Source: an uncultured Flavobacteriaceae bacterium (GTDB lineage Bacteria; Bacteroidota; Bacteroidia; Flavobacteriales; Flavobacteriaceae). Taken from it: 64,000 nt of DNA. This document shows positions 8,179 through 55,931 of the stretch, in pieces. Location: the NCBI GenBank assembly GCA_943842625.1, contig CALTCK010000002.1:186001-250000 (forward strand), given 5' to 3'. The notes beneath the pieces are model-generated. The model had not been told where the DNA came from. It was given only the letters and a program-made list of their open reading frames with translations, and ran no database searches. Every line of letters starts with the position of its first letter. The first letter of the stretch is position 1. A program made the position numbers and the translations under genes.

Positions 8179-9951
8179 ATGAAGAAATTAATATACTTAT
8201 TACTCGCATTGTTAATACTTGCCTGTAGTAGTGATGATGATGGTAATCTTTGTAATTACACTCCTACACTAACTACTACTGAAGTTACCAATATAACAGA
8301 AACAGGTCGCAACCTTAAATGGGGTGATAAGTATCGTTTCAGAGAACTGTGATAATCCAAATAATACAGAGCAAGGGTTTGTGTATGCAACTACGATACA
8401 ACCTACTACAGCGAATAATAAAGTTAATGTAAATGGCACAGATATAAGTACCACATTAGAAAACCTTGAGCCTAATACTACTTATTATGCAAGAACTTTT
8501 TTAACCAATGCTTTGGGTGAGTTTTATGGTAATGAGGTCAGTTTTATAACAAGTGAAGAGCCTATAGATTGTGAAGTGGTGTATTTAGCAGAAAATGGAA
8601 TAACTATAAAGGCTTGTGATGATGCTAATGTAGGTGATACGGGAGTGATATATGGAGTTACTTATACGGTAGTAGATGAGGCTATGTTAAGAGAAATGGT
8701 GGATAACGAAGAAGATTTAACTAAAGTAGTGACTACTTTTGTGGCTGATATGAGTGATATGTTTTAGTAATGCTGAAGGTTTCAACCAACCTATTGGACA
8801 TTGGGATGTAAGTAATGTTACTGATATGAGTAGTATGTTTGGAATAGGAATTTATTAATTCTTTTAATCAAACGATTGGTAATTGGGATGTTAGTAATGT
8901 AACTGATATGAGTTATATGTTTTTTAGAAATGATGCTTTTAATCAACCTATTGGAGATTGGGATGTGAGTAGTGTAACGAATATGGAAGGTATGTTTTTT
9001 GATGCTGATGCGTTTAACCAACCGATTAGTAATTGGGATGTTAGTAATGTAACTAATATGATTGGTATGTTTAGATATGGTATCTAATTTTAACCAACCT
9101 ATTGGTAATTGGGATGTGAGTAATGTAACTGATATGTATGGGATGTTTTTTGAGCTATCTACTTTTAATCAACCTATTGAAAATTGGGATGTAAGTAATG
9201 TAACTAATATGTTTCGTATGTTTTCTAAGCTCAGATTTTAACCAACCTATTGGTAATTGGGATGTGAGTAATGTAACTAATATGGAGGATATGTTTCAGG
9301 AAGCCTCAAATTTCAACCAACCTATTGGTGAATGGGATGTTAGTAATGTAACTAATATGTATCGAATGTTTAGTGAGGCTCATCTTTTAATCAACCCATT
9401 GGAGATTGGGATGTTAGTAAGGTTACTAATATGCGTGTTATGTTTTTATATGCATCTTCTTTTAATCAACCAATCGGTGATTGGAATGTGAGTAATGTAA
9501 TTAGTATGCAAAGTATGTTTAATGGTGCATCTCTTTTAATCAACCCATTGGAGATTGGGATGTGAGTAATGTAACTGATATGTATGGTATGTTTGCTTTT
9601 TCATCTTTCAATCAACCTATTGGAGATTGGGATGTGAGTAATGTAACTGATATGTATGGTATGTTTTATGATGCAACTTCCTTTAATCAAGACATTGGTT
9701 ATTGGGATGTGAGTAGTGTAACTACTACGAGACAAATGTTTGAGAGTGCTGATGCTTTCAACCAACCAATTGGAGATTGGAATGTCATTAGTGTGACTAA
9801 TATGAGAGAGATGTTTGAAAATGCTTCTACCTTTAATCAGGACATAAGCACCTGGAGTGTAGATGGTGTTACTACTTGTTATTATTTTAGTGATAATTCA
9901 CCACTAACAGAAGAAAATAAACCCAACTTTACAAGCTGTGACCCCTTATGA
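8179..9951 (+). CDS. BspA-type repeat surface lipoprotein (seven frameshifts)
   Basis: The N-terminus [21 protein letters not shown] is a lipoprotein signal with the Cys in LAC and an SDDD stretch, typical of surface lipoproteins in Bacteroidota. A fibronectin III-like segment follows ([15 protein letters not shown]). Then come about 15 tandem 25-residue units of the pattern [18 protein letters not shown], the BspA/DUF285 leucine-rich-like repeat, and an ending FTSCDPL. No single frame spans the gene. One-base insertions are needed near 8320, 8764, 8850, 9080 and 9230, and one-base deletions near 9383 and 9533. Likely role: surface adhesion or protein binding. Intact gene with assembly errors, or decayed gene, cannot be separated here. 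Confidence 0.8.
8781..9880 (+). repeat. tandem ~75-bp repeats coding for BspA-type units
   Basis: About 15 copies of a roughly 75-bp unit, each containing a TTTAATCAACCTATTGG-like stretch followed by TGGGATGTGAGTAATGTAAC and ATATG....ATGTTT. Copies differ at 10-30 percent of positions by eye. These are protein-coding repeats, not CRISPR: there are no constant repeats separated by unique spacers. Confidence 0.85.
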
Positions 9952-10062
9952 ACCATTAACAGAGCAAATTAAAGAAATATCTAAGTATTTAGTATTAGTC
10001 AAACTTAAACCATAGGCATATCTTATTCTTTTAATTCAGCTATTTCTAAACCTCTTGTTTTT

Positions 10063-10323
10063 CTAATCACACGGAAATTCATTTGGAGCAATAGTATGAT
10101 TGGAGTAAGAAGTTTGACCATCACCAACATATGTTAATTGCAAAGCATTTCCTCCACTACTTACAGTACAAGTTATGCTTCCAGTTGATGTGGGATTTCC
10201 ATTAGTGTAGATCCCTTCAAGATACAAAACCATACTATCCTCAAGTTCACTTTGAATTGTATAAGTTGCATATCCTATTATTATTTCATTACCATCTTTA
10301 TCATAATCTGTAATTGGTTGTTT
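10063..10323 (-). pseudogene. C-terminal remnant of an unrecognised protein
   Basis: An open frame of 86 codons without any start, bounded upstream by a stop right at the end of the PhzF gene. It encodes segments such as DYDKDGNEIIIGYATYTIQ and LQLTYVGDGQTSYSNH and ends NEFPCD. Composition (Thr, Ser, Gly, Asn, beta-rich) suggests the end of a secreted or surface protein. The 110 bases between it and the BspA-type gene hold nothing I recognise. Either a genuine fragment left by recombination or a gene cut by an assembly join. Confidence 0.4.
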
Positions 10324-10333
10324 TTAAAAAAAA

Positions 10334-11122
10334 TTATTCCGTCCACAAAGTTCCTATTGCATAGGTTCGGGCCTTTCCTACCAACAATACCTGATCACCT
10401 TCAAGACAGCATTTTAAACCCCCCCCGCGTTGTGAACGTTGCTTTGCATCCAGTTCCTTTTTTTGGAGCCGTTCTGCCCAAAAAGGTACCAACGAACAGT
10501 GGGCTGATCCGGTAACAGGATCTTCTAAAATAGTGGCTTGTGGAGTAAAAAATCGCGATACAAAATCGTAATGGTCCCCTTTTGCTGTGACCACTACACC
10601 ACCAGGATCCAGATTGATTTGATCGAGCTGAGCTCGGTTAATTTGAAGGTCCAAAATTTCCTGTTCGTTTTGATAAACCAACACATAATCCCGAGCTTTA
10701 TAAACTTCCTGGGGAGCAATACTCAATGCATTTTTAATTGGATTGGGAAGTGTAACAGGGACAGGCATTCTTGTAGGAAGTGCCATTTGGTAAGCGTCCC
10801 CTGTAACCGTTACACGAAGCAGCCCACTCTTAGTTTTAAAAAGAAAGTGAGGTCGAGAATCTTTTAAAAGAGTTTTTAAACAATGTGCAGTCGCAAGGGT
10901 GGCATGGCCACAAAGATCCATCTCGATGTCTGGGGTAAACCAACGTAGGTGAAAAATAGCGTCTTCTTCTACAAAAAAAGCGGTTTCTGGTACCGCATTT
11001 TCTTTAGCAATTTTTAACAAGAGTTTATCGGGCAACCAACGCTCTAAGGGGACTACACAGGCGGGATTTCCTTTAAAAAGGGTATCAGTAAAAGCATCGA
11101 TTTGATAAAAGCGGAGTTCCAT
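10334..11122 (-). CDS. PhzF family isomerase/epimerase-like protein
   Basis: A 262-residue member of the PhzF superfamily (two diaminopimelate-epimerase-like halves). Landmarks: QIDAFTDTLFKGNPACVV at the N-terminus, the catalytic Glu in AVPETAFFV near residue 47, DLCGHATLATAH, and the second-half loop EDPVTGSAHCSLVPFW. Such proteins isomerise small acids; no phenazine genes are nearby, so the substrate is unknown. The start is three bases past the stop of the alpha/beta hydrolase gene, last in an operon with the PETase-like esterase. Base composition is clearly richer in G+C than in the flanking genes. Confidence 0.9.
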   Translation of the reverse strand: MELRFYQIDAFTDTLFKGNPACVVPLERWLPDKLLLKIAKENAVPETAFFVEEDAIFHLRWFTPDIEMDLCGHATLATAHCLKTLLKDSRPHFLFKTKSGLLRVTVTGDAYQMALPTRMPVPVTLPNPIKNALSIAPQEVYKARDYVLVYQNEQEILDLQINRAQLDQINLDPGGVVVTAKGDHYDFVSRFFTPQATILEDPVTGSAHCSLVPFWAERLQKKELDAKQRSQRGGGLKCCLEGDQVLLVGKARTYAIGTLWTE

Positions 11123-11125
11123 AAA

Positions 11126-12082
11126 TTATTTGCTGGGAAGGTTTAAAAATTGTAGTACTGGTTCGATGCTTCGCTCAGGGTCTTCCTCCATGGGTACATG
11201 CCCTAAATTATCGAAAACCACCAGGGTGCTGTTGGGGAGGTCTTTATGAAACTGCTGCGCCACCTCCAAAGGGATTAATCGATCCTCAGCGCCCCATAAA
11301 ATAAGGGTCGCCTGTTGGACCCCCGTTACTTTTTCCCTAGAAAAAGGGGCTGGTGGAGTATTGAGTTTATCTACAAAGGCCTGCCGGTTACCCGATCGAA
11401 GGGTGAGTTCAAAATAACGATCGATCACTTCCGGCAATACTTTTTTGGGATCAGCATAAACATTTTTAACACTGGAGGCCGCAACAAAGCGAGGCGTAAT
11501 AAAGGTAAATATTTGTTTAACCACCGGCAGTTGCGCTAACTGAAAAGCGATAGGAATACTATTGGAACCTGTGGGATAGCCAGAGGCATCGATTAAAATT
11601 AGCCGGTCGACCCGATCGGGATAAGCACTCGTATAGTTCCAAGCGATTTTTCCCCCTAAAGAGTTTCCGGCCAAAACACAGTGCTCAACTCCCAGTTCTT
11701 GTAAAAACGCTGCAATAAATGCGACATAATGTGGGGTGCTATAATTGCGATCTAAAAAAGGTCCCGTGAGCCCATAGGCCGGTAAATCCATACGGAGTAC
11801 CCGTCGATACTTCGACAGCGAGGTTGCCCAGTCGTTAAAGGTGTGTAAACTGGCTCCGGTTCCATGAATCAATACAATAGGAATGGAATCGGTCTTGGGC
11901 CCTTCATCGCGATAATGCACCTCCATCCCCTCCAAAGCCATAAATTGTGACTCGGTATTGGCATAGGTTTCTTTCAGGGTTTCCAAGGGTAGATCTTGGT
12001 AGCCAAAAAGAATTATCAGCCCTCCCATTAATATCCCAAAAACTACAACAATTAGAAGTATTATTTTTTTTAAAAACCTCAT
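11126..12082 (-). CDS. membrane-anchored alpha/beta hydrolase
   Basis: A 318-residue hydrolase with one N-terminal membrane helix (IILLIVVVFGILMGGLIIL), so probably anchored with the enzyme domain outside the cytoplasm. The fold has the oxyanion segment HGTGAS, the nucleophile elbow GNSLGG, the acid in WGAEDRLIP and the His in LGHVPMEEDP. It resembles haloalkane dehalogenase/esterase-type hydrolases, but the substrate is not predictable. It lies 15 bases after the PETase-like gene and 3 bases before the PhzF gene; co-transcription suggests it could act on products of the secreted esterase, which is inference. Confidence 0.88.
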   Translation of the reverse strand: MRFLKKIILLIVVVFGILMGGLIILFGYQDLPLETLKETYANTESQFMALEGMEVHYRDEGPKTDSIPIVLIHGTGASLHTFNDWATSLSKYRRVLRMDLPAYGLTGPFLDRNYSTPHYVAFIAAFLQELGVEHCVLAGNSLGGKIAWNYTSAYPDRVDRLILIDASGYPTGSNSIPIAFQLAQLPVVKQIFTFITPRFVAASSVKNVYADPKKVLPEVIDRYFELTLRSGNRQAFVDKLNTPPAPFSREKVTGVQQATLILWGAEDRLIPLEVAQQFHKDLPNSTLVVFDNLGHVPMEEDPERSIEPVLQFLNLPSK

Positions 12083-12097
12083 TTAAAAGCTTATAAT

Positions 12098-13195
12098 TTA
12101 ATTTGTTTTAATTAATTTAACAACTTGATTGTCAATGTTTAGGTAATAAATACCTAAAGCATAAGTTGATAAATCAATATAGGACTGAGAACTGCTTAAT
12201 TGTCCGCTTTGTAAGCGTTGGCCGTAGGGCGAATAAAGTTCAAAATTTAATTCTTGAAAAATCTCAAAATACACCCGATCTTGAGTTGGGTTGGGATAGT
12301 AATTAAGTGCAAGTTCTGGGCTGTTATTAGCCAACAATTCGCAAATAAAATCTTGCTCCACCTTCGAGGCCGCAGGAGGATCAACTAATAAATTATCGGT
12401 TAACAAAGGGCAATAACAATCGTTTTGCTCTACATAGAGTTTTAACCAAGACAAGGCAATTTTACCAACCGAGTAGTCACCGCCAGTTGGCGAATTAGCA
12501 ACCGAATGATCTCCGTTTTCAACTTCAAATAATAATTTATTGGTGCTTACAGGAGTCGCCTCGTAATGCAAATCTGCATGCAATGAAGGCGGAGCTACCG
12601 TATCGTCTTGCCCACTAAATATAAGTGCGGCACTATTGTGGTCAAAATCAGGGTTTGGTAGCCAGGGACACAAAGCTACTACACCAGCGATGGTGGGGTC
12701 CAACACGGCTGCTCTTTGAGCACCGCCGCCACCCATAGACCAACCACTAACCGCTAATTGTTCTAGATTAAGATCACCCAACAATGGAGAGGCGGGTCGG
12801 ATATTTTCTTGTTTTATGGTTTCCAAGGCATCGAGGAGCGCATAGGCTCTAGCCTCTGGAAAATCTATCGGGGAGTTGGTTCCTATAATAATGGTAACGA
12901 TACCATGTGATGCATAAAAAGGCCCCCATGCCTCTACACTGGAGGGGCCTGCGGTAAAACCTGGAACAATAGCAATACTTGCATAGGGAGGAATTCCGTT
13001 AGTGGGATAATAAATCGTAGCACCATTATAATCAGGGCCATTTCGGATACCATCCTCCTCGTCGAGAGCTGCTACTGAAAAAGGTCCCGGAATGCTCAGA
13101 CTTTCTAGGGTCACCCCTTCACATTGTCCATAAACCGAATGGAACAAAAGTGGGGTTAAAAAAGCAAATAAAATGCTGAAGTATTTTTTTTTCAT
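12098..13195 (-). CDS. secreted PETase/cutinase-like polyester hydrolase with T9SS sorting domain
   Basis: A 365-residue secreted esterase. Signal peptide about residues 1-23, catalytic domain about 30-265, and C-terminal T9SS type A domain starting NYYPNPTQDRVYFEI. The catalytic part follows the Ideonella PETase/cutinase family closely: IAIVPGFTA (oxyanion residue Phe80 where PETase has Tyr), GWSMGGGG with nucleophile Ser153 and oxyanion Met154, the substrate Trp178 in CPWLP, acid Asp198 in GQDDTVAP and His230 in NGDHS. The PETase-specific second disulfide near the active site is not evident. Closest known relatives should be Bacteroidota PET esterases such as PET27 (Aequorivita) and PET30 (Kaistella). 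The natural substrate may be cutin-like or another polyester. Confidence 0.92.
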   Translation of the reverse strand: MKKKYFSILFAFLTPLLFHSVYGQCEGVTLESLSIPGPFSVAALDEEDGIRNGPDYNGATIYYPTNGIPPYASIAIVPGFTAGPSSVEAWGPFYASHGIVTIIIGTNSPIDFPEARAYALLDALETIKQENIRPASPLLGDLNLEQLAVSGWSMGGGGAQRAAVLDPTIAGVVALCPWLPNPDFDHNSAALIFSGQDDTVAPPSLHADLHYEATPVSTNKLLFEVENGDHSVANSPTGGDYSVGKIALSWLKLYVEQNDCYCPLLTDNLLVDPPAASKVEQDFICELLANNSPELALNYYPNPTQDRVYFEIFQELNFELYSPYGQRLQSGQLSSSQSYIDLSTYALGIYYLNIDNQVVKLIKTN

Positions 13196-13295
13196 TTAGC
13201 GATATTTTTATGGGTTGTCTGCAATCTTTTACAAGATACTATTATTTTAAAATTTATCATTTTATAAAATTAAACTTTCTCTCACTCAACTCATT

Positions 13296-14267
13296 TTAGA
13301 GCGGGAACCTGTCGTGTATGCGCCCTATTTGAAAACCAAGTGCCAATACTTTTTTGGTTGCTTCACTAGCATTATCCAGCAAGGGGTTGGTGTGGTTAAA
13401 ATGGGTAAAAATCACCTTAGCGCGTTCCTCCATGCTGAAATCTTTTAAGGTTTGGATGGTCTCCAATACCGACGGGTGAGGAATTTGTGACATATCTCGA
13501 TTTCCCAATTCTTTAGCACTATAAAAAGTAGCATCTAAAAAGGCATAATCAACTTTTTTTAGTTCTGTCGCGAGGTTCAACTCCCATCGGTTCCATTTAT
13601 CGATATCCGGAATAAACAAGGCTTTTTTATGGGGCCCTTCAATCAAGTAACCTACAGTCTCCGAGTATTCATCCCGATGTGGAACTAAAAAAGGAGTAAC
13701 TTGAAGTCTTGGTGATAAAGAAATTGCTTGGTTAGCAACTAAGGGTTGTAGCGCGATGTTACGATTGGTTACCAGCTGGCTCCAAGGACCATTATTGCTA
13801 ATAAAGGAACTCATTTTGGGCATGGCAAACACCGAGACTTCAGTTGCATTAACTGCTTCTTTACCTAGGTACATCAACCCAGTATAGTGCCCGATGTGGG
13901 CATGAGTTAAAAAAATACCGTCCACGATACTGGATGAAGCAATCGGCGAAGCTTTTTTAAGCGCGTGAAGCTGCTTACTGATATCGGGTGTGGCATCAAA
14001 GAGGTATTTTTTTTGAGTATTAAAATCTAACAAACCCAAAGAACTCACCCTCCTTACCAAATCTGCTTGCTCAAACAAGCCTTGACAACATTTTTTGTTG
14101 CAGTTTATTTGTGGAGCGCCCGCATCTTGCAAGGTTCCCAGTAAAATTAAAGAAACGTCTAGCTCTTCAACTGAAGTAGAGCTCTCAAACGGGGTGGACG
14201 CCTTTGCTATCTTTTTTTTTTGACAAGAAAAAAATACGAGCAGCAGTATCAAATAAAGAAATCGCAT
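13296..14267 (-). CDS. PqqB-like metallo-beta-lactamase-fold lipoprotein
   Basis: A 323-residue MBL-fold hydrolase starting with a lipoprotein signal (LLLVFFSCQKKK, lipid Cys in FSC), so attached to an envelope membrane. PqqB hallmarks are present: LLGTLQDAGAPQINC with the CNKKCC cysteines, and the metal motif THAHIGHYTG. Later metal-site candidates are VPHRDEYSETVGY, DATFYS and FTHFNHTNP. PqqB itself is cytoplasmic and acts in pyrroloquinoline quinone synthesis; no other pqq gene is visible and the protein is exported, so a different substrate is likely. It is upstream of the PETase-like gene on the same strand with a 100-bp gap. Confidence 0.85.
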   Translation of the reverse strand: MRFLYLILLLVFFSCQKKKIAKASTPFESSTSVEELDVSLILLGTLQDAGAPQINCNKKCCQGLFEQADLVRRVSSLGLLDFNTQKKYLFDATPDISKQLHALKKASPIASSSIVDGIFLTHAHIGHYTGLMYLGKEAVNATEVSVFAMPKMSSFISNNGPWSQLVTNRNIALQPLVANQAISLSPRLQVTPFLVPHRDEYSETVGYLIEGPHKKALFIPDIDKWNRWELNLATELKKVDYAFLDATFYSAKELGNRDMSQIPHPSVLETIQTLKDFSMEERAKVIFTHFNHTNPLLDNASEATKKVLALGFQIGRIHDRFPL

Positions 14268-14415
14268 TAATTTTATTTTAGAGGGTTTAATAGGTTAATT
14301 TAATAAAAACTGTTCATTATTTATTATCTACTAATATAATGATAATGAAATACAAATAAATTCATTTTTTTAAACTGTTCAAAAATGATAACTTCGATAC
14401 TATAATAAAAAAGAA

Positions 14416-15078
14416 ATGTTTAAAGCTGTATTATTTGATATGGACGGAGTCATTGTAGACACCGAACCCTTGCATTGCAAAGCATACTTCAAAATGTTTA
14501 AAGCGATTAACATTGAAGTATCTAACGATTTATACGAGTCTTTTACCGGACAATCCACCTTAGCTATTTGTATTCAATTATGTCAACTTTTTAAATTAAC
14601 CGAACCTCCAACTACCCTCGTCCAATTAAAGAGGGGCTTTTTTAAAGAACTATTTTTCAATGATGATAGTTTAACTTTAATCGAAGGCGTTTTGGATTGT
14701 ATCAAAGAGTATCATCAAAAAGGAATGACTCTAGTCCTTGCCTCCTCCGCCTCTATGTTAACTATCGACAATGTTTTTAAACGTTTTGAATTGGACTCCT
14801 ATTTTGTTGCTAAATTAAGTGGAGCCGATTTAAGAGCCTCCAAGCCACATCCAGAAATATTTATCAAGGCAGCAAAAGCAAGTGGTTACGACCAAAAACA
14901 CTGCGTTGTTATCGAGGACTCTACGAATGGAATAGCAGCTGCAAACGCTGCAGGTATTTACTGTATTGGTTTTAAAAGTCCACATTCTAAAAATCAAAAC
15001 TACACAAAAGCCTCCAAGATTATCACTGATTTTTCTGAAATCAGCTATCACAAATTGCAGGCATTAAAAAATAAGTAA
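14416..15078 (+). CDS. HAD family phosphatase, beta-phosphoglucomutase-like
   Basis: A 220-residue HAD hydrolase of subfamily IA. Motif I FDMDGVIVDTE is at residues 7-17 with the nucleophile and acid/base Asp; motif II is LASSAS; motif III Lys is in ASKPHPEIF; motif IV is IEDSTNGIAAA. The four-helix cap resembles beta-phosphoglucomutase and general sugar-phosphate phosphatases. The gene stands 29 bases before the SDR gene and may open the lipid-type operon, or may have its own transcript. The substrate is unknown. Confidence 0.9.
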   Translation: MFKAVLFDMDGVIVDTEPLHCKAYFKMFKAINIEVSNDLYESFTGQSTLAICIQLCQLFKLTEPPTTLVQLKRGFFKELFFNDDSLTLIEGVLDCIKEYHQKGMTLVLASSASMLTIDNVFKRFELDSYFVAKLSGADLRASKPHPEIFIKAAKASGYDQKHCVVIEDSTNGIAAANAAGIYCIGFKSPHSKNQNYTKASKIITDFSEISYHKLQALKNK

Positions 15079-50847: not shown

Positions 50848-52674
50848 TTAAAATTTAAAGGTTATAGTGGTTAGTATATTTCTATTTGGCATAGGTCGAT
50901 AGGCAACATTTTCATAATACTTATTTAAAATATTATTGATTTTAAATCCTATTTTTATAGGCATTGTTTTGTATAAAAAAAAGTAATCTAAGCCTATATT
51001 AGATACTAAATAAGAGTCTAAATAAGTGCTGTTATCTGTAGTTGTAAATACTTTTCCATTGAACAATTGCTGGTAATAAGCATTGAATCGTTGAATTCTG
51101 TAATCGATAGTTCCTGTTACTTTATGATAAGGAACATAAATTAATTGTTTGCCTGTTTCAATGTTTTTTGCAGAGGTATAGGCATAATCAATCCCTATAT
51201 TAAACATATTTTCTTGGATTGATTTAGAAAAATTTACTCCCATTTCTAATCCAATATTTTCAGTTTCAGAAACATTTATCGGAGAAAATATTCCGTTCAT
51301 ATCAGGCTGCCAACTTATGAGGTTTTTTGAGTTTATATAAAACAAATTCACATTTAGAAAAAAATTCTTGAAATAAAACTCATTACTTATTGCACCTTGG
51401 TAAGATATCTCTGGTTTCAAATCAACATTGCCTCCAGAATTCCAATATAAATCGTTAAACGTTGGAACTCGATAATTCTTAGAAGCGTTTGCTTTTAGAG
51501 AATACCATTGGTTAATTTTGTATTTAGTATCGACAGAAACTATCAAAGGATTCTCGAAATCATTAAAAAATTCTTGACGAATATTGATATTGTAACTTAG
51601 TTGATCTGATACAAGTTGTTTCCATATAAATATTGCGGCTAAGGTGTTACGACTCTCATCACCTATGTTCGAACCTTCTGCTTTTATATGAGTTAAGTTT
51701 AAAATAGAACTCACCATTATTTTTTCGTTGATATTGTATTCTAATTGGTAGTCGCCAATTATAGTGTTGGATTTACCTTCAAAATACAAAACGTTTTCTC
51801 GATTTGGATAATATTGATATTTTTCAAAAATATGTGCACCTTTTATAGTATTATTCCATTTTTTTGATGTTGAATTCCAAGTCAATAAGTTTCGAAAAGT
51901 CTCATCTTTGTAACTGTCTTTATTGAGGGTGGTAATAGTACCTGAAAGATTTCTGGATCCACTAAAATAATTAGAATTCCAAATAAGTGAGCTATTATTT
52001 AACCGAAGACCTCCATTCATAGAAATATTTAGTTTATTAAATTCTCCATTGTTATTTTTTCGATTTAAACCAACATATTCATAATCGTTGTCCGAAGAAA
52101 TAAAATCAAAAGCCATATCTAAATATTTTTTTTCAGTAGCTATTTTTCTTTTAAAAATAGCGCCAACGGAAGCATAACTCCCATAATAGATAGTAAGTTC
52201 ATTACTAGAATTCTCTGTAAATTCAATAGTATTATTTAAATGAATACTTCCACCTACAGCGCCACTACCATATTGAGAACTCCCTCCTCCACTTCTAATA
52301 ATAACATTAGTCAAGGAAGCTGTAGCAATAGTATTAAAATCGGTTTGCCCAGTAAGATTTGAATTGATAGGAATACCATTCCATATGACTGCAGTTTGCG
52401 AAGCATTGGTACCTCTAAATGACGGAGAGGCTACCATACCGTAACCATTTTCTTTAATATAAATATTAGAATTGAAGTTTAATAAATCACTAAGGGATAC
52501 CGGATTTCTAGAAACTAAAGTATCCGATATTTTAGTTAGCGTATACCCTTCTGAAAACTCTTCTAATTTAGAGTCTACAAGTACTATTTCATTTAAATAT
52601 TGGATAGAGTCTAGCTGAGCACATAACGATGCCGAACACATAAATGACGCTATAGATAGGTATAATCCTTTCAT
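50848..52674 (-). CDS. btuB: TonB-dependent cobalamin receptor BtuB
   Basis: A 608-residue outer-membrane receptor. Signal peptide about 1-19, TonB box region near YLNEIVLVDSKLEE, plug with NIYIKENGYGMVASPSFRGTNASQTAVIWNGIPINS and IIRSGGGSSQYGSGAVGGSIHL, then a 22-strand-type barrel ending RNILTTITFKF with a terminal Phe. The size fits BtuB (about 600). The upstream cobalamin riboswitch is the main evidence for the substrate. Brings B12 across the outer membrane using TonB energy. Confidence 0.9.
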   Translation of the reverse strand: MKGLYLSIASFMCSASLCAQLDSIQYLNEIVLVDSKLEEFSEGYTLTKISDTLVSRNPVSLSDLLNFNSNIYIKENGYGMVASPSFRGTNASQTAVIWNGIPINSNLTGQTDFNTIATASLTNVIIRSGGGSSQYGSGAVGGSIHLNNTIEFTENSSNELTIYYGSYASVGAIFKRKIATEKKYLDMAFDFISSDNDYEYVGLNRKNNNGEFNKLNISMNGGLRLNNSSLIWNSNYFSGSRNLSGTITTLNKDSYKDETFRNLLTWNSTSKKWNNTIKGAHIFEKYQYYPNRENVLYFEGKSNTIIGDYQLEYNINEKIMVSSILNLTHIKAEGSNIGDESRNTLAAIFIWKQLVSDQLSYNINIRQEFFNDFENPLIVSVDTKYKINQWYSLKANASKNYRVPTFNDLYWNSGGNVDLKPEISYQGAISNEFYFKNFFLNVNLFYINSKNLISWQPDMNGIFSPINVSETENIGLEMGVNFSKSIQENMFNIGIDYAYTSAKNIETGKQLIYVPYHKVTGTIDYRIQRFNAYYQQLFNGKVFTTTDNSTYLDSYLVSNIGLDYFFLYKTMPIKIGFKINNILNKYYENVAYRPMPNRNILTTITFKF

Positions 52675-52717
52675 ATCCTCTTACTTTTATCCCGAAAGTC
52701 CGATAAATTAACTGAAA

Positions 52718-52895
52718 AAAGGCAGGTCTCCTGGCTTGTCTTATGTATAACCTTCCCGCGTTAACAGTGGTTTTAAGAGATACATTTTTGAATAGATAAT
52801 TCAAAAAAGACTTACAGTTGCGGGAACAGCTTCGGTTTTTAACCGAATTCCCTTTTAAGAGGTCGTTTTGCAATTGAAAATTTCCTCACCAATTT
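52718..52895 (-). promoter_or_regulatory. cobalamin (AdoCbl) riboswitch
   Basis: On the minus strand the leader carries the B12 box: GGGAATTCGGTTAAAAACCG, then AAGCTGTTCCCGCAACTGTAAG, and the closing end GACAAGCCAGGAGACCTGCC. A peripheral stem (GAATTATC..ATTCAAAAATG region) and ACGCGGGAAGG lie between. It ends about 45 bases before the btuB start and should lower btuB-btuG expression when cobalamin is plentiful. Confidence 0.95.
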
Positions 52896-52956
52896 CGATG
52901 CTAAAATAAGATTTTAAAAATTGCTACAATCAAAACAAATACTATTATTTTTGAGA

Positions 52957-54093
52957 ATGCAAAAAATACTTTTTATAATATCGCTCTTTTTATTTTTTAT
53001 TTCTTGTGAAGAACAAAAAGATGATAAAATTTTAACAAATCATTCCAAGTATAAAACCCCTATAAAATATGCACAAGGGTTTGATATTACATATCATGAT
53101 GGATATAAAGTTGTTACTGTAAAAAATATTTGGCCCGGAAGTGAAAAAGAGTTTAGATATGCATTAGTAGAAAAAGGTCATCTACTTGAAATGCCAGCAT
53201 CATTTGATGAAATCATCAGCATACCTATCAATGAAATTGTAGTAACATCAACTACCCATATTCCTTCACTTGAAATGTTAGCGGTTGACACCACTCTTGT
53301 TGGATTTCCTAGTTTAGATTACATCTCATCACAAAAAACAAGAAAGAGAATTGACCAGGGGCTTATCAAAGAATTAGGCAAAAATGAAGATTTAAATACC
53401 GAATCATTACTAGATTTAAATCCAGATATCATTGTAGGTTTTGCTATCGATAATCATGATAAAACTTTAAAAACAATAAAAAAAACTGGGATTCCACTAG
53501 TTTATAATGGAGATTGGACAGAGAGCTCTCCTTTAGCAAAAGCAGAATGGATTAAATTTTTTGCAGCATTTTACGGTAAGGATACTTTAGCCAACCGATT
53601 ATTTTCAAATATTGAAAATGAATATTTAAATGCTAAAAAAATAGCATTAAATGCAAAATCGAAACCGACAGTATTGAGTGGTGCCATGTATAAAGATATC
53701 TGGTATTTACCACAAGGAAAAAGTTGGGCTGCTCAATTTATAGCAGATGCAAATGGAGATTACCTTTGGAAGGAAACTAAGGGTACTGGAAGTCACTCTC
53801 TGAGCTTGGAATCTGTTTTAGAAAAGGCTGAACATGCTGAGATATGGATAGGCCCCAGTTATTATACAAATTTAGTTCAATTAAAGAAAGCTCATGCTGT
53901 ATATCAATATTTCGATTCTTTTAAAAATAAAAAAGTGTATAGTTTTACCAATAAGGTTGGAGAAACAGGTGGTTTAATTTATTTTGAATTAGCACCAAAC
54001 CGTCCAGACATTGTCTTAAAAGATATTATAAAAATTTTACATCCTGAATTATTACCCAATCACAAATTCTATTTTTTTGATCAACTAAAATAA
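52957..54093 (+). CDS. btuF: cobalamin ABC transporter substrate-binding lipoprotein BtuF
   Basis: About 378 residues: lipoprotein signal (ILFIISLFLFFISCEEQ, lipid Cys in ISC) and a type III periplasmic-binding domain with two lobes joined by a helix (VVTVKNIWPGSEKEFRYA; NEIVVTSTTHIPSLEMLA; NPDIIVGFAIDNHDK; AEIWIGPSYYTNL). I chose the ATG that opens the signal peptide, 12 codons into the longest frame. Divergent from btuB; no second riboswitch is visible on this side. Its stop directly abuts the btuC start. Confidence 0.87.
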   Translation: MQKILFIISLFLFFISCEEQKDDKILTNHSKYKTPIKYAQGFDITYHDGYKVVTVKNIWPGSEKEFRYALVEKGHLLEMPASFDEIISIPINEIVVTSTTHIPSLEMLAVDTTLVGFPSLDYISSQKTRKRIDQGLIKELGKNEDLNTESLLDLNPDIIVGFAIDNHDKTLKTIKKTGIPLVYNGDWTESSPLAKAEWIKFFAAFYGKDTLANRLFSNIENEYLNAKKIALNAKSKPTVLSGAMYKDIWYLPQGKSWAAQFIADANGDYLWKETKGTGSHSLSLESVLEKAEHAEIWIGPSYYTNLVQLKKAHAVYQYFDSFKNKKVYSFTNKVGETGGLIYFELAPNRPDIVLKDIIKILHPELLPNHKFYFFDQLK

Positions 54094-55125
54094 TTGAAAA
54101 ATCAAAAAACATATCGCTTCTATTTTTTAGTATTGACTTTAATACTTATAATCACTTTTATAATAAGTATTAGCTTAGGAACGGTATCTATTCCTCTTAG
54201 AGAAGTTATCATTAGTCTATTTGATGGAGAACCTTTAAAATCGTCTTGGAAATATATCATATTGGATTATCGCTTGCCTAAAGCAATAACTGCTATACTC
54301 GCAGGAGGCGGGTTAGCCGTTTCCGGATTATTGATGCAAACACTTTTTAGAAATCCATTAGCAGGACCTTTTGTTTTAGGATTAAGTAGTGGAGCTAGTT
54401 TAGGTGTAGCATTATTGATCCTTGGTACTGGAATATTTGGAATTAGTTATGGGGGCTTTTTACTCGAGTCTTGGAGTTTAGTTATAGCCTCTGCGTTTGG
54501 GAGTTTTTTAGTACTGTTAGCGGTCTTATCTGTAACTTTTAAAGTAAAAGACACCATGACCATACTCATCATCGGACTTATGTTTGGGAGTGTTACTGCA
54601 GCAGTGGTGTCGGTCCTTTCTTATTTTAGTAATGCAGAACAGTTACAACAATTTGTATTTTGGAGTTTTGGAACTTTAGGTAATGTTTCTTGGAATGGAA
54701 TTTTAATTTTATTCTGCTGTATTACAATTGGTTTATGGATAAGTTTTCTTACTACAAAATCACTAAATGCACTATTGTTGGGGGAAAATTATGCAAAAAG
54801 TATGGGTGTCAATTTAAAATTAGCCACGTTCTGGATTATAGTAGCTACCAGCCTTTTGGCTGGCAGTATAACAGCCTTTGCAGGACCAATTGCTTTTGTT
54901 GGTTTAGCAGTACCACATTTGACAAGACAATATTTTAACTCGTCAAATCATATGGTTTTATTGCCAGCTGTCTTTTTAAGTGGTGCAGTTTTGATGCTAA
55001 TTTGTGATACGGTAGCGCAATTACCTTTTATAGAATTGACGTTACCAATTAATGCTATAACTTCTTTATTAGGAGCACCTGTTGTAATTTGGTTGTTAGT
55101 AAGAAAACGAAAATTATTTTTTTAA
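54094..55125 (+). CDS. btuC: FecCD/BtuC-type ABC permease
   Basis: A 343-residue inner-membrane permease of the FecCD family with about ten helices: DYRLPKAITAILAGGGLAVSGLLMQTLFRNPLAGP, LSSGASLGVALLI and FAGPIAFVGLAVPHLTRQ are diagnostic. It starts at TTG immediately after the btuF stop. Type II importers of this family carry cobalamin, heme or siderophores; the neighbouring B12 riboswitch and BtuB support cobalamin. Confidence 0.9.
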   Translation: MKNQKTYRFYFLVLTLILIITFIISISLGTVSIPLREVIISLFDGEPLKSSWKYIILDYRLPKAITAILAGGGLAVSGLLMQTLFRNPLAGPFVLGLSSGASLGVALLILGTGIFGISYGGFLLESWSLVIASAFGSFLVLLAVLSVTFKVKDTMTILIIGLMFGSVTAAVVSVLSYFSNAEQLQQFVFWSFGTLGNVSWNGILILFCCITIGLWISFLTTKSLNALLLGENYAKSMGVNLKLATFWIIVATSLLAGSITAFAGPIAFVGLAVPHLTRQYFNSSNHMVLLPAVFLSGAVLMLICDTVAQLPFIELTLPINAITSLLGAPVVIWLLVRKRKLFF

Positions 55126-55136
55126 AAAGCTAATTA

Positions 55137-55931
55137 ATGTCTAATAATCATTCAAATAATATTATTGAAGTAAAAAATGTATCTATTGGATATTCGAATA
55201 AAAAAGATACGTTTATTGTCTCAGAAAACATTAACTTTTCAATTAATAAAGGTGAATTAATAAGTATTGTAGGCACCAATGGAATAGGTAAATCAACACT
55301 ACTAAAAACTCTTGCAAGGATACAGCCACAAAAAAATGGCATCATATTACTAAATAACAAAAAATTTAATGAATACTCGACTTTAGCTATAGCAACTCAA
55401 CTAAGTATTGTGCTTACAGAATCACCCTCATCAAAAAATATAACTGTCAAAGAATTAGTGTCATTAGGTAGACATCCTTATACCAATTGGATAGGAATGC
55501 TTACAGAAGTGGATGAAAAAATTATTGAAGAATCTCTAATAGATACGGACACCGTAAACTTAGTTAATAAAAAATGTTCTGAATTAAGTGACGGGCAACT
55601 ACAAAGAGTAATGATAGCGAGGGCTCTGGTTCAAGATACTCCAATAATATTATTGGACGAACCAACCACACATCTAGATATTTATCATAGAGCATATATT
55701 TTAAAACTATTAAAAGATTTAGCCAATAAAAAGAAAAAAACTATCATATTCTCGACACACGAAATAGATTTAGCTATTCAAGTTTCTCATAAAATGATTG
55801 TAATGACAACAGATAAAATCTATTTTAATAAACCTGAAATGTTAATCAAATTTGGGTGTTTTGAAAATTTATTTCCCTCTGAAACAATTAAATTTGACAA
55901 TGAATTAAAACAATTTATATTAAAAAAATAA
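55137..55931 (+). CDS. btuD: cobalamin ABC transporter ATPase BtuD
   Basis: A 264-residue ABC ATPase: Walker A GTNGIGKSTLL near residue 43, signature LSDGQLQRVMIARAL, Walker B IILLDEPTTHLD, switch His in IIFSTHEIDLA. Eleven bases after btuC. Powers the BtuC importer. After its stop, the 160 bases to the DUF5777 gene contain nothing I can assign. Confidence 0.92.
   Translation: MSNNHSNNIIEVKNVSIGYSNKKDTFIVSENINFSINKGELISIVGTNGIGKSTLLKTLARIQPQKNGIILLNNKKFNEYSTLAIATQLSIVLTESPSSKNITVKELVSLGRHPYTNWIGMLTEVDEKIIEESLIDTDTVNLVNKKCSELSDGQLQRVMIARALVQDTPIILLDEPTTHLDIYHRAYILKLLKDLANKKKKTIIFSTHEIDLAIQVSHKMIVMTTDKIYFNKPEMLIKFGCFENLFPSETIKFDNELKQFILKK

Follow-up and report, generated by a model that had tools for sequence, protein, structure and literature searches.

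The PET27/PET30 family of esterases was described in 2022 (Zhang et al., PMC8767016), and the global surveys in that report list 98 possible homologues, mostly aquatic. According to its account, PET27 (from Aequorivita sp.), PET28, PET29, and PET30 (from Kaistella jeonii) are active on pNP esters, PCL, BHET, and Impranil, with signal cleavage placed at residues 23-24, whereas active protein was not obtained for PET38, PET53, PET57, and PET58. Over 120 h, PET27 and PET30 released 174.4 and 3.2 nmol of TPA from PET film compared with 811.1 nmol for IsPETase, corresponding to 4.7-fold and about 253-fold lower activity as reported there; PET28 and PET29 are given as lacking measurable PET activity. 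The published table in PMC8767016 lists the motif Phe-Met-Trp for PET27, PET28, PET29, PET53, and Cut190 and Phe-Met-Tyr for PET30, and Tyr-Met-Trp occurs in none of its nine bacteroidetal enzymes. For PET30, PMC13188925 tabulates Phe-Met-Trp instead, at odds with the former; in the 7pzj sequence of PET30 we read Tyr178. The 2022 report further states that PET30 lacks the cysteines of the active-site disulfide and that its Phe80Tyr, Tyr178Trp, and double mutants lost their activity on BHET as well as on PET (stated there without data). Removal of the tail is reported there to have been harmless to PET30. Of two other sources, PMC13188925 covers different, tail-less flavobacterial PET hydrolases, and PMC13396203 covers type III enzymes with little bearing on the esterase described below.

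We analyzed a stretch of 64,000 nucleotides (the window) from an uncultured Flavobacteriaceae bacterium, located in contig 2 of a 1.94-Mb assembly that comprises 17 contigs and is listed as 84% complete. The window encodes an esterase (Table 1) that, judged from its sequence, is new to the described PET27/PET30 family, the family itself being already known. Its reading frame runs from ATG to stop with no internal stops, and copies that are 99, 93, and 90% identical occur with matching neighbors in three other assemblies (L002 to L004). A chance origin of the reading is excluded by these near-identical copies together with the E-values reported below. No second match to the PETase family PF12740 was found in this incomplete genome.

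Table 1. Features of the window discussed in the text
Feature	Position	Strand	Basis and remarks
PET27/PET30-type esterase, 365 aa	12098..13195	-	ORF, Pfam/NCBIfam, PDB sequence match, alignment
PETase (PF12740) catalytic domain, residues 36-266	12398..13090	-	Pfam, alignment; has Phe80, Trp152, Ser153, Met154, Trp178, Asp198, His230
T9SS type A C-terminal sorting domain (PF18962/TIGR04183), about residues 300-363	12107..12298	-	Pfam, NCBIfam
Alpha/beta hydrolase (Abhydrolase_1), 318 aa	11126..12082	-	Pfam; 15 bases downstream of esterase; hydrophobic N-terminus by eye
PhzF-family isomerase, 262 aa	10334..11122	-	Pfam, NCBIfam; 3 bases downstream of alpha/beta hydrolase
Metallo-beta-lactamase-fold protein	13296..14267	-	Nearest PqqB, 122.4 bits, far below cut-off 245; 100 bases upstream of esterase; lipoprotein-like N-terminus by eye
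Repeat-rich, surface-protein-like stretch	8324..9951	+	75-bp unit, 12.7 copies
TonB-dependent receptor gene	50848..52674	-	
Cobalamin riboswitch	52704..52908	-	88.2 bits
Periplasmic-binding/FecCD/ABC transporter set	52921..55931	+	

Two other features of the window are recorded here in their own right. The repeat-rich stretch is broken into short ORFs, and its counterpart in L003 is one open frame of 591 aa; the difference reflects either sequencing error or real variation. A cobalamin riboswitch lies between the TonB-dependent receptor gene and the transporter set, and the region is likely a B12 uptake locus.

The esterase matched PF12740 at 167.8 bits (cut-off, 28; E 4.2e-49). As assessed by eye, a signal peptide occupies about residues 1 to 23, ending in ...VYG and followed by QC; the catalytic domain (about 36 to 266), a linker, and a T9SS type A tail make up the rest of the chain. 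The tail, which had been proposed in the first-pass annotation, was borne out by two models, with Por_Secre_tail PF18962 scoring 31.1 bits against a cut-off of 27 over residues 300 to 358 and TIGR04183 scoring 25.6 against 23. Among the three proteins in which tails were scored, one was found in the window protein and in the homologue L009 and not in the Marinimicrobia protein L017. NCBIfam model NF051441 (BHET hydrolase BdeA) gave 129.1 bits and did not reach its equivalog cut-off of 520. When PDB sequences were searched with phmmer, the top match was 7PZJ, aligned nearly end to end at E 4.4e-139, and the next was Ple629 at 9.4e-45. The structure 7PZJ is PET30 (PMC8767016). In a BLAST comparison, the catalytic domain was 68% identical to that of PET30 and 34 to 39% identical to those of Ple629, Ple628, 7cwq (a Burkholderiales cutinase), 8c65 (a PBSA depolymerase), and IsPETase; overall identity to PET30 was 58.1% across 363 aligned columns.

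Aligning the esterase with IsPETase paired Phe80, Trp152, Ser153, Met154, Trp178, Asp198, and His230 with Tyr87, Trp159, Ser160, Met161, Trp185, Asp206, and His237, respectively. Because each residue falls on its IsPETase equivalent, the numbering of the first-pass annotation for Ser153, Asp198, His230, Trp178, and Phe80 is correct, as is its statement that Phe80 replaces the oxyanion Tyr of PETase. Ser231 aligned with Ser238 of IsPETase, and this residue and Trp152 are equivalents of what we take to be marks of an IsPETase-type cleft. The triad is shared as well, and the loop that follows the catalytic His is equally long in both. The two proteins differ in that IsPETase (6QGC; 32.6% identity) has Tyr87 where the esterase has Phe80, and in that the esterase carries a T9SS tail and has Gly195 and Val232 at the positions of Cys203 and Cys239, which form the active-site disulfide of IsPETase. 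A C-terminal pair, Cys262 and Cys285, aligns with PET30. One C-terminal disulfide and no active-site disulfide are thus predicted, as in the PET27/PET30 family.

The likeness to PET30 as described in PMC8767016 extends to length, PETase domain, Phe80, Met154, Ser153/Asp198/His230, Cys262 and Cys285, the absence of active-site cysteines, and the T9SS tail. PET30 differs in having Tyr178 and Thr200, compared with Trp178 and Val200 here. At position 178, confirmed as the equivalent of IsPETase Trp185, the window protein follows PET27, and its motif Phe80-Met154-Trp178 equals the one published for PET27. Compared through the published table (PMC8767016), PET27 also resembles it in having a T9SS tail and one disulfide. 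Two homologues titled Aequorivita, L009 and L016, share 62.9% and 60.4% overall identity, respectively, with the window esterase.

Variation at these sites was surveyed in an alignment of 32 rows, 6 of them IsPETase-type and 26 on the PET30 side (the window protein, PET30, 23 other homologues, and L017). Ser153 and His230 are invariant in all 26 PET30-side rows; Asp198 is present in 25 (Glu in L017), Cys262 and Cys285 are present in 25 (G151 lacks both), and Met154 is present in 24. The three substrate-clamp positions vary more in the same 26 rows. At position 80, 23 rows have Phe, 1 has Trp, and the 2 identical rows L005 and G213 have Tyr; at position 152, Trp occurs 17 times, His 7 times, and Tyr twice; and at position 178 there are 18 Trp, 5 Tyr, 2 Phe, and 1 Ala. 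The identical homologues L005:1758-2861 and L034 (G213) combine Tyr80, Met154, and Trp178, the Tyr-Met-Trp motif that IsPETase and LCC have, which makes them good candidates for an activity assay. A natural divergence pair is found at L029:4795-7236 (G138), where one of two tandem PETase-like paralogues has Trp80 and Tyr152 and the other has His152, Leu154, and Phe178.

A maximum-likelihood tree of the 32 rows, a set without any true dienelactone hydrolase, separated the 26 rows of the window protein, PET30, and 24 homologues from the 6 IsPETase-type rows with support of 100/100. The window protein forms one clade with L002, L003, and L004 (100/100) and belongs to a 12-row group that excludes PET30 (98/93); a 22-row inner group holding both it and PET30 received 86/98 and is not starred. 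Twelve of the 28 inner branches are open, and the long branches of L017 and G151 meet. The branching among flavobacterial homologues, including the exact place of PET30, is therefore weakly supported by these sequences. Two other alpha/beta hydrolases of the same genome were included in the BLAST comparison but in neither the tree nor the residue table, and L043 served solely as a query for PDB. L022 (G161, 60% identical) is absent from the tree and the neighbor comparison; L031, L032, and L033 were excluded because by identity they nearly duplicate L002 to L004, and L018 to L021 and L023 to L025 because the window or L026 to L030 carry the same genes with longer flanking sequence.

An AlphaFold2 model built from a 17-row alignment had a mean pLDDT of 78.3 and a pTM of 0.73, with the catalytic core mostly above 80 and weak signal-peptide and linker stretches. 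Its top Foldseek match was again 7pzj (E 3.2e-39), with an rmsd of 7.7 over 315 columns, so the whole chain does not overlay tightly on that structure; the 49 further matches listed are cutinases and PETases with rmsd values of 2.2 to 3.0. The initial assignment to a PETase/cutinase-like family thus agrees with the PF12740 score, the 7PZJ match, Foldseek, and the tree. Kinship with the Bacteroidota PET esterases PET27 and PET30, with which the first-pass annotation had compared it, is upheld by the PDB match, the alignment, the grouping with PET30 in the tree, and the published description (PMC8767016).

The first-pass annotation also saw in the two genes downstream of the esterase a possible downstream pathway. 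The spacings it gave, 15 and 3 bases, are right, and the alpha/beta hydrolase is perhaps co-transcribed with the esterase in the window. We compared neighbors at 24 loci, several of them short or interrupted by the end of a contig. The alpha/beta hydrolase stands beside the esterase at 4 of these (the window and L002 to L004), and PhzF is near it at 4 (the window, L003, L004, and L008); L002 lacks PhzF, L008 lacks such an alpha/beta hydrolase, and both genes are missing at 19 of the 24, some cut short by contig ends. The metallo-beta-lactamase-fold gene lies upstream in the window and L002 to L004 and is absent at the other 20 loci. A HAD-family gene near the esterase is common to the window, L002 to L005, and L034, a pattern suggesting that a single site was inherited in this lineage while the genes downstream of it changed. 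The commonest neighbor, a DNA polymerase I gene upstream at 6 loci (Pfam-checked in two), is uninformative on substrate. Other homologues neighbor genes for UvrB (L007), an AMP-binding enzyme (L005), a zinc carboxypeptidase (L011), an acyl-CoA dehydrogenase (L009), and a chloride channel (L035). A scan of 10000-14600 returned 22 promoter-like sites (11.3 expected) and 4 terminator-like sites (5.4 expected) and was not used as evidence.

Co-occurrence was assessed in 19 genomes of the genus, most of them incomplete. Six have the esterase, seven the alpha/beta hydrolase (two of these without the esterase), and five PhzF (one without). The alpha/beta hydrolase is thus found in 5/6 genomes with the esterase compared with 2/13 without, and PhzF in 4/6 compared with 1/13, giving raw Fisher p values of 0.0095 and 0.017; with the four syntenic relatives treated as a single observation, these become 0.14 and 0.07 and are not significant. 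In G214 the three genes are on three different contigs, and in G188 and G212 the alpha/beta hydrolase occurs where no esterase was found, with PhzF also present in G188. Given the counts over 24 loci and the loss of significance once the syntenic clade is counted once, the esterase-hydrolase-PhzF row looks like a local arrangement, as far as sequence comparison can tell, and we rejected a conserved operon-pathway of these three genes. Counting against this rejection is L026, where a different alpha/beta-hydrolase-like protein is encoded two genes from the esterase homologue.

These data bear on how the enzyme is to be read. One reading takes the esterase for a dedicated and efficient PET hydrolase whose two downstream genes, for the alpha/beta hydrolase and PhzF, would form a plastic-degradation pathway. 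It would be in line with the Trp152 and Ser231 equivalents of IsPETase, the tight spacing of the gene row, the raw co-occurrence, PhzF near the homologue of L008, and the hydrolase-like gene of L026. The neighbor counts and the corrected p values argue against the pathway. PET27 and PET30 are also weaker than IsPETase on PET by the margins in PMC8767016, which argues against an efficient PETase. The tannase/MHETase family PF07519 had no match in the genome, a result that might also count against the pathway; control genomes gave none either, so this search had no positive control and is uninformative. The one Rieske ring-hydroxylase alpha subunit found in the genome, which is about 84% complete, is nearest GbcA at 85.1 bits, far below the cut-off of 670, and hence gives no evidence for a TPA dioxygenase. 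We consider this reading highly improbable. We would give just as little credence to a two-step polyester unit of a planktonic flavobacterium, in which a PET27-like enzyme with the IsPETase-type cleft residues Trp152 and Ser231 would attack PET in cold sea water. The alpha/beta hydrolase linked to it, perhaps anchored in the membrane, would then finish the mono-esters that it releases. Alternatively, the protein might be an ordinary dienelactone hydrolase (DLH) or other alpha/beta hydrolase misread as PETase-like, as the fold is shared, some PETase-like PDB chains are labeled DLH-domain proteins, and the flavobacterial DLHs PET93 and PET94 are reported to be PET active (PMC13188925). As that paper describes them, PET93 and PET94 resemble the window esterase in being flavobacterial and secreted with a Ser-Asp-His triad, and they are set apart by their DLH type, the reported absence of a PorC tail, and a position outside the PET27/PET30 cluster. 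A DLH grouping of the esterase was checked by family scores alone: PF01738 had no match to it at E <= 0.001, compared with the strong PF12740 score, and the three PF01738 matches of the genome lie elsewhere. Classical DLHs use a Cys nucleophile; the Ser nucleophile and the near end-to-end match to PET30 speak against this reading, which we find scarcely credible.

A stronger competitor is an esterase for a natural polyester or lipid, such as a cutin-like polymer, wax, or triglyceride, that like PET28 and PET29 would have no measurable PET activity. In its favor, PET hydrolysis was not measurable for two of the four published relatives with activity, both of which cleaved BHET and PCL (PMC8767016). 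Against it stand the Phe-Met-Trp motif shared with PET-active PET27, although this motif is non-discriminating, and the fold match to PET-active PET30. We judge its chance to be only slightly short of even. By analogy with the characterized relatives, cleavage of BHET and aliphatic polyester (PCL) by the window esterase is likely, and slow PET hydrolysis has about an even chance, because two of the four active relatives act on PET. Since PET28 and PET29 carry Phe-Met-Trp without measurable PET activity and four further candidates yielded no active protein, sequence is no predictor of PET hydrolysis. Algal or animal lipids or cutin-like polyesters are perhaps the natural substrate, which is a guess.

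We conclude that the window protein is very probably a serine carboxylesterase of the PET27/PET30 family, likely promiscuous and likely secreted by the T9SS. The genome contains SprA (best piece, 2077 bits) and 47 matches to TIGR04183, the window esterase included, and export across the outer membrane is likely for this reason. SprA is represented by three overlapping pieces at G000:C1:176086-183210, two with stops within the matched stretch, which suggests frame breaks in either the assembly or the gene and weighs against reading an intact T9SS from this assembly. In the mechanism we propose, Sec would export the esterase, and the type IX system would move it across the outer membrane and remove the tail. 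Either on the cell surface or in the surrounding medium, the Ser153-His230-Asp198 triad would attack the ester bonds of a substrate flanked by Phe80 and Trp178. The enzyme would most likely be promiscuous and cold active, with BHET, aliphatic polyesters, and esters of short and medium chain length as its substrates.

The esterase is a patchy accessory gene: at E <= 1e-20 it was matched in 7/199 genomes of the family and 6/19 of the genus (its own genome counted in both, and incomplete genomes among the misses). A scan of GTDB contigs gave 16 related loci, 13 titled as MAGs and 3 from named strains (Winogradskyella, Aequorivita, and Patiriisocius), and their titles point to a mainly marine distribution. 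A tblastn search of plasmids with the esterase returned 5 matches, all below 60% identity. The window esterase and its homologues enlarge a small family whose biochemistry has been described and leave knowledge of the family unchanged. At positions 80, 152, and 178, the substrate clamp, they also provide a natural series of residues for asking why some members act on PET.
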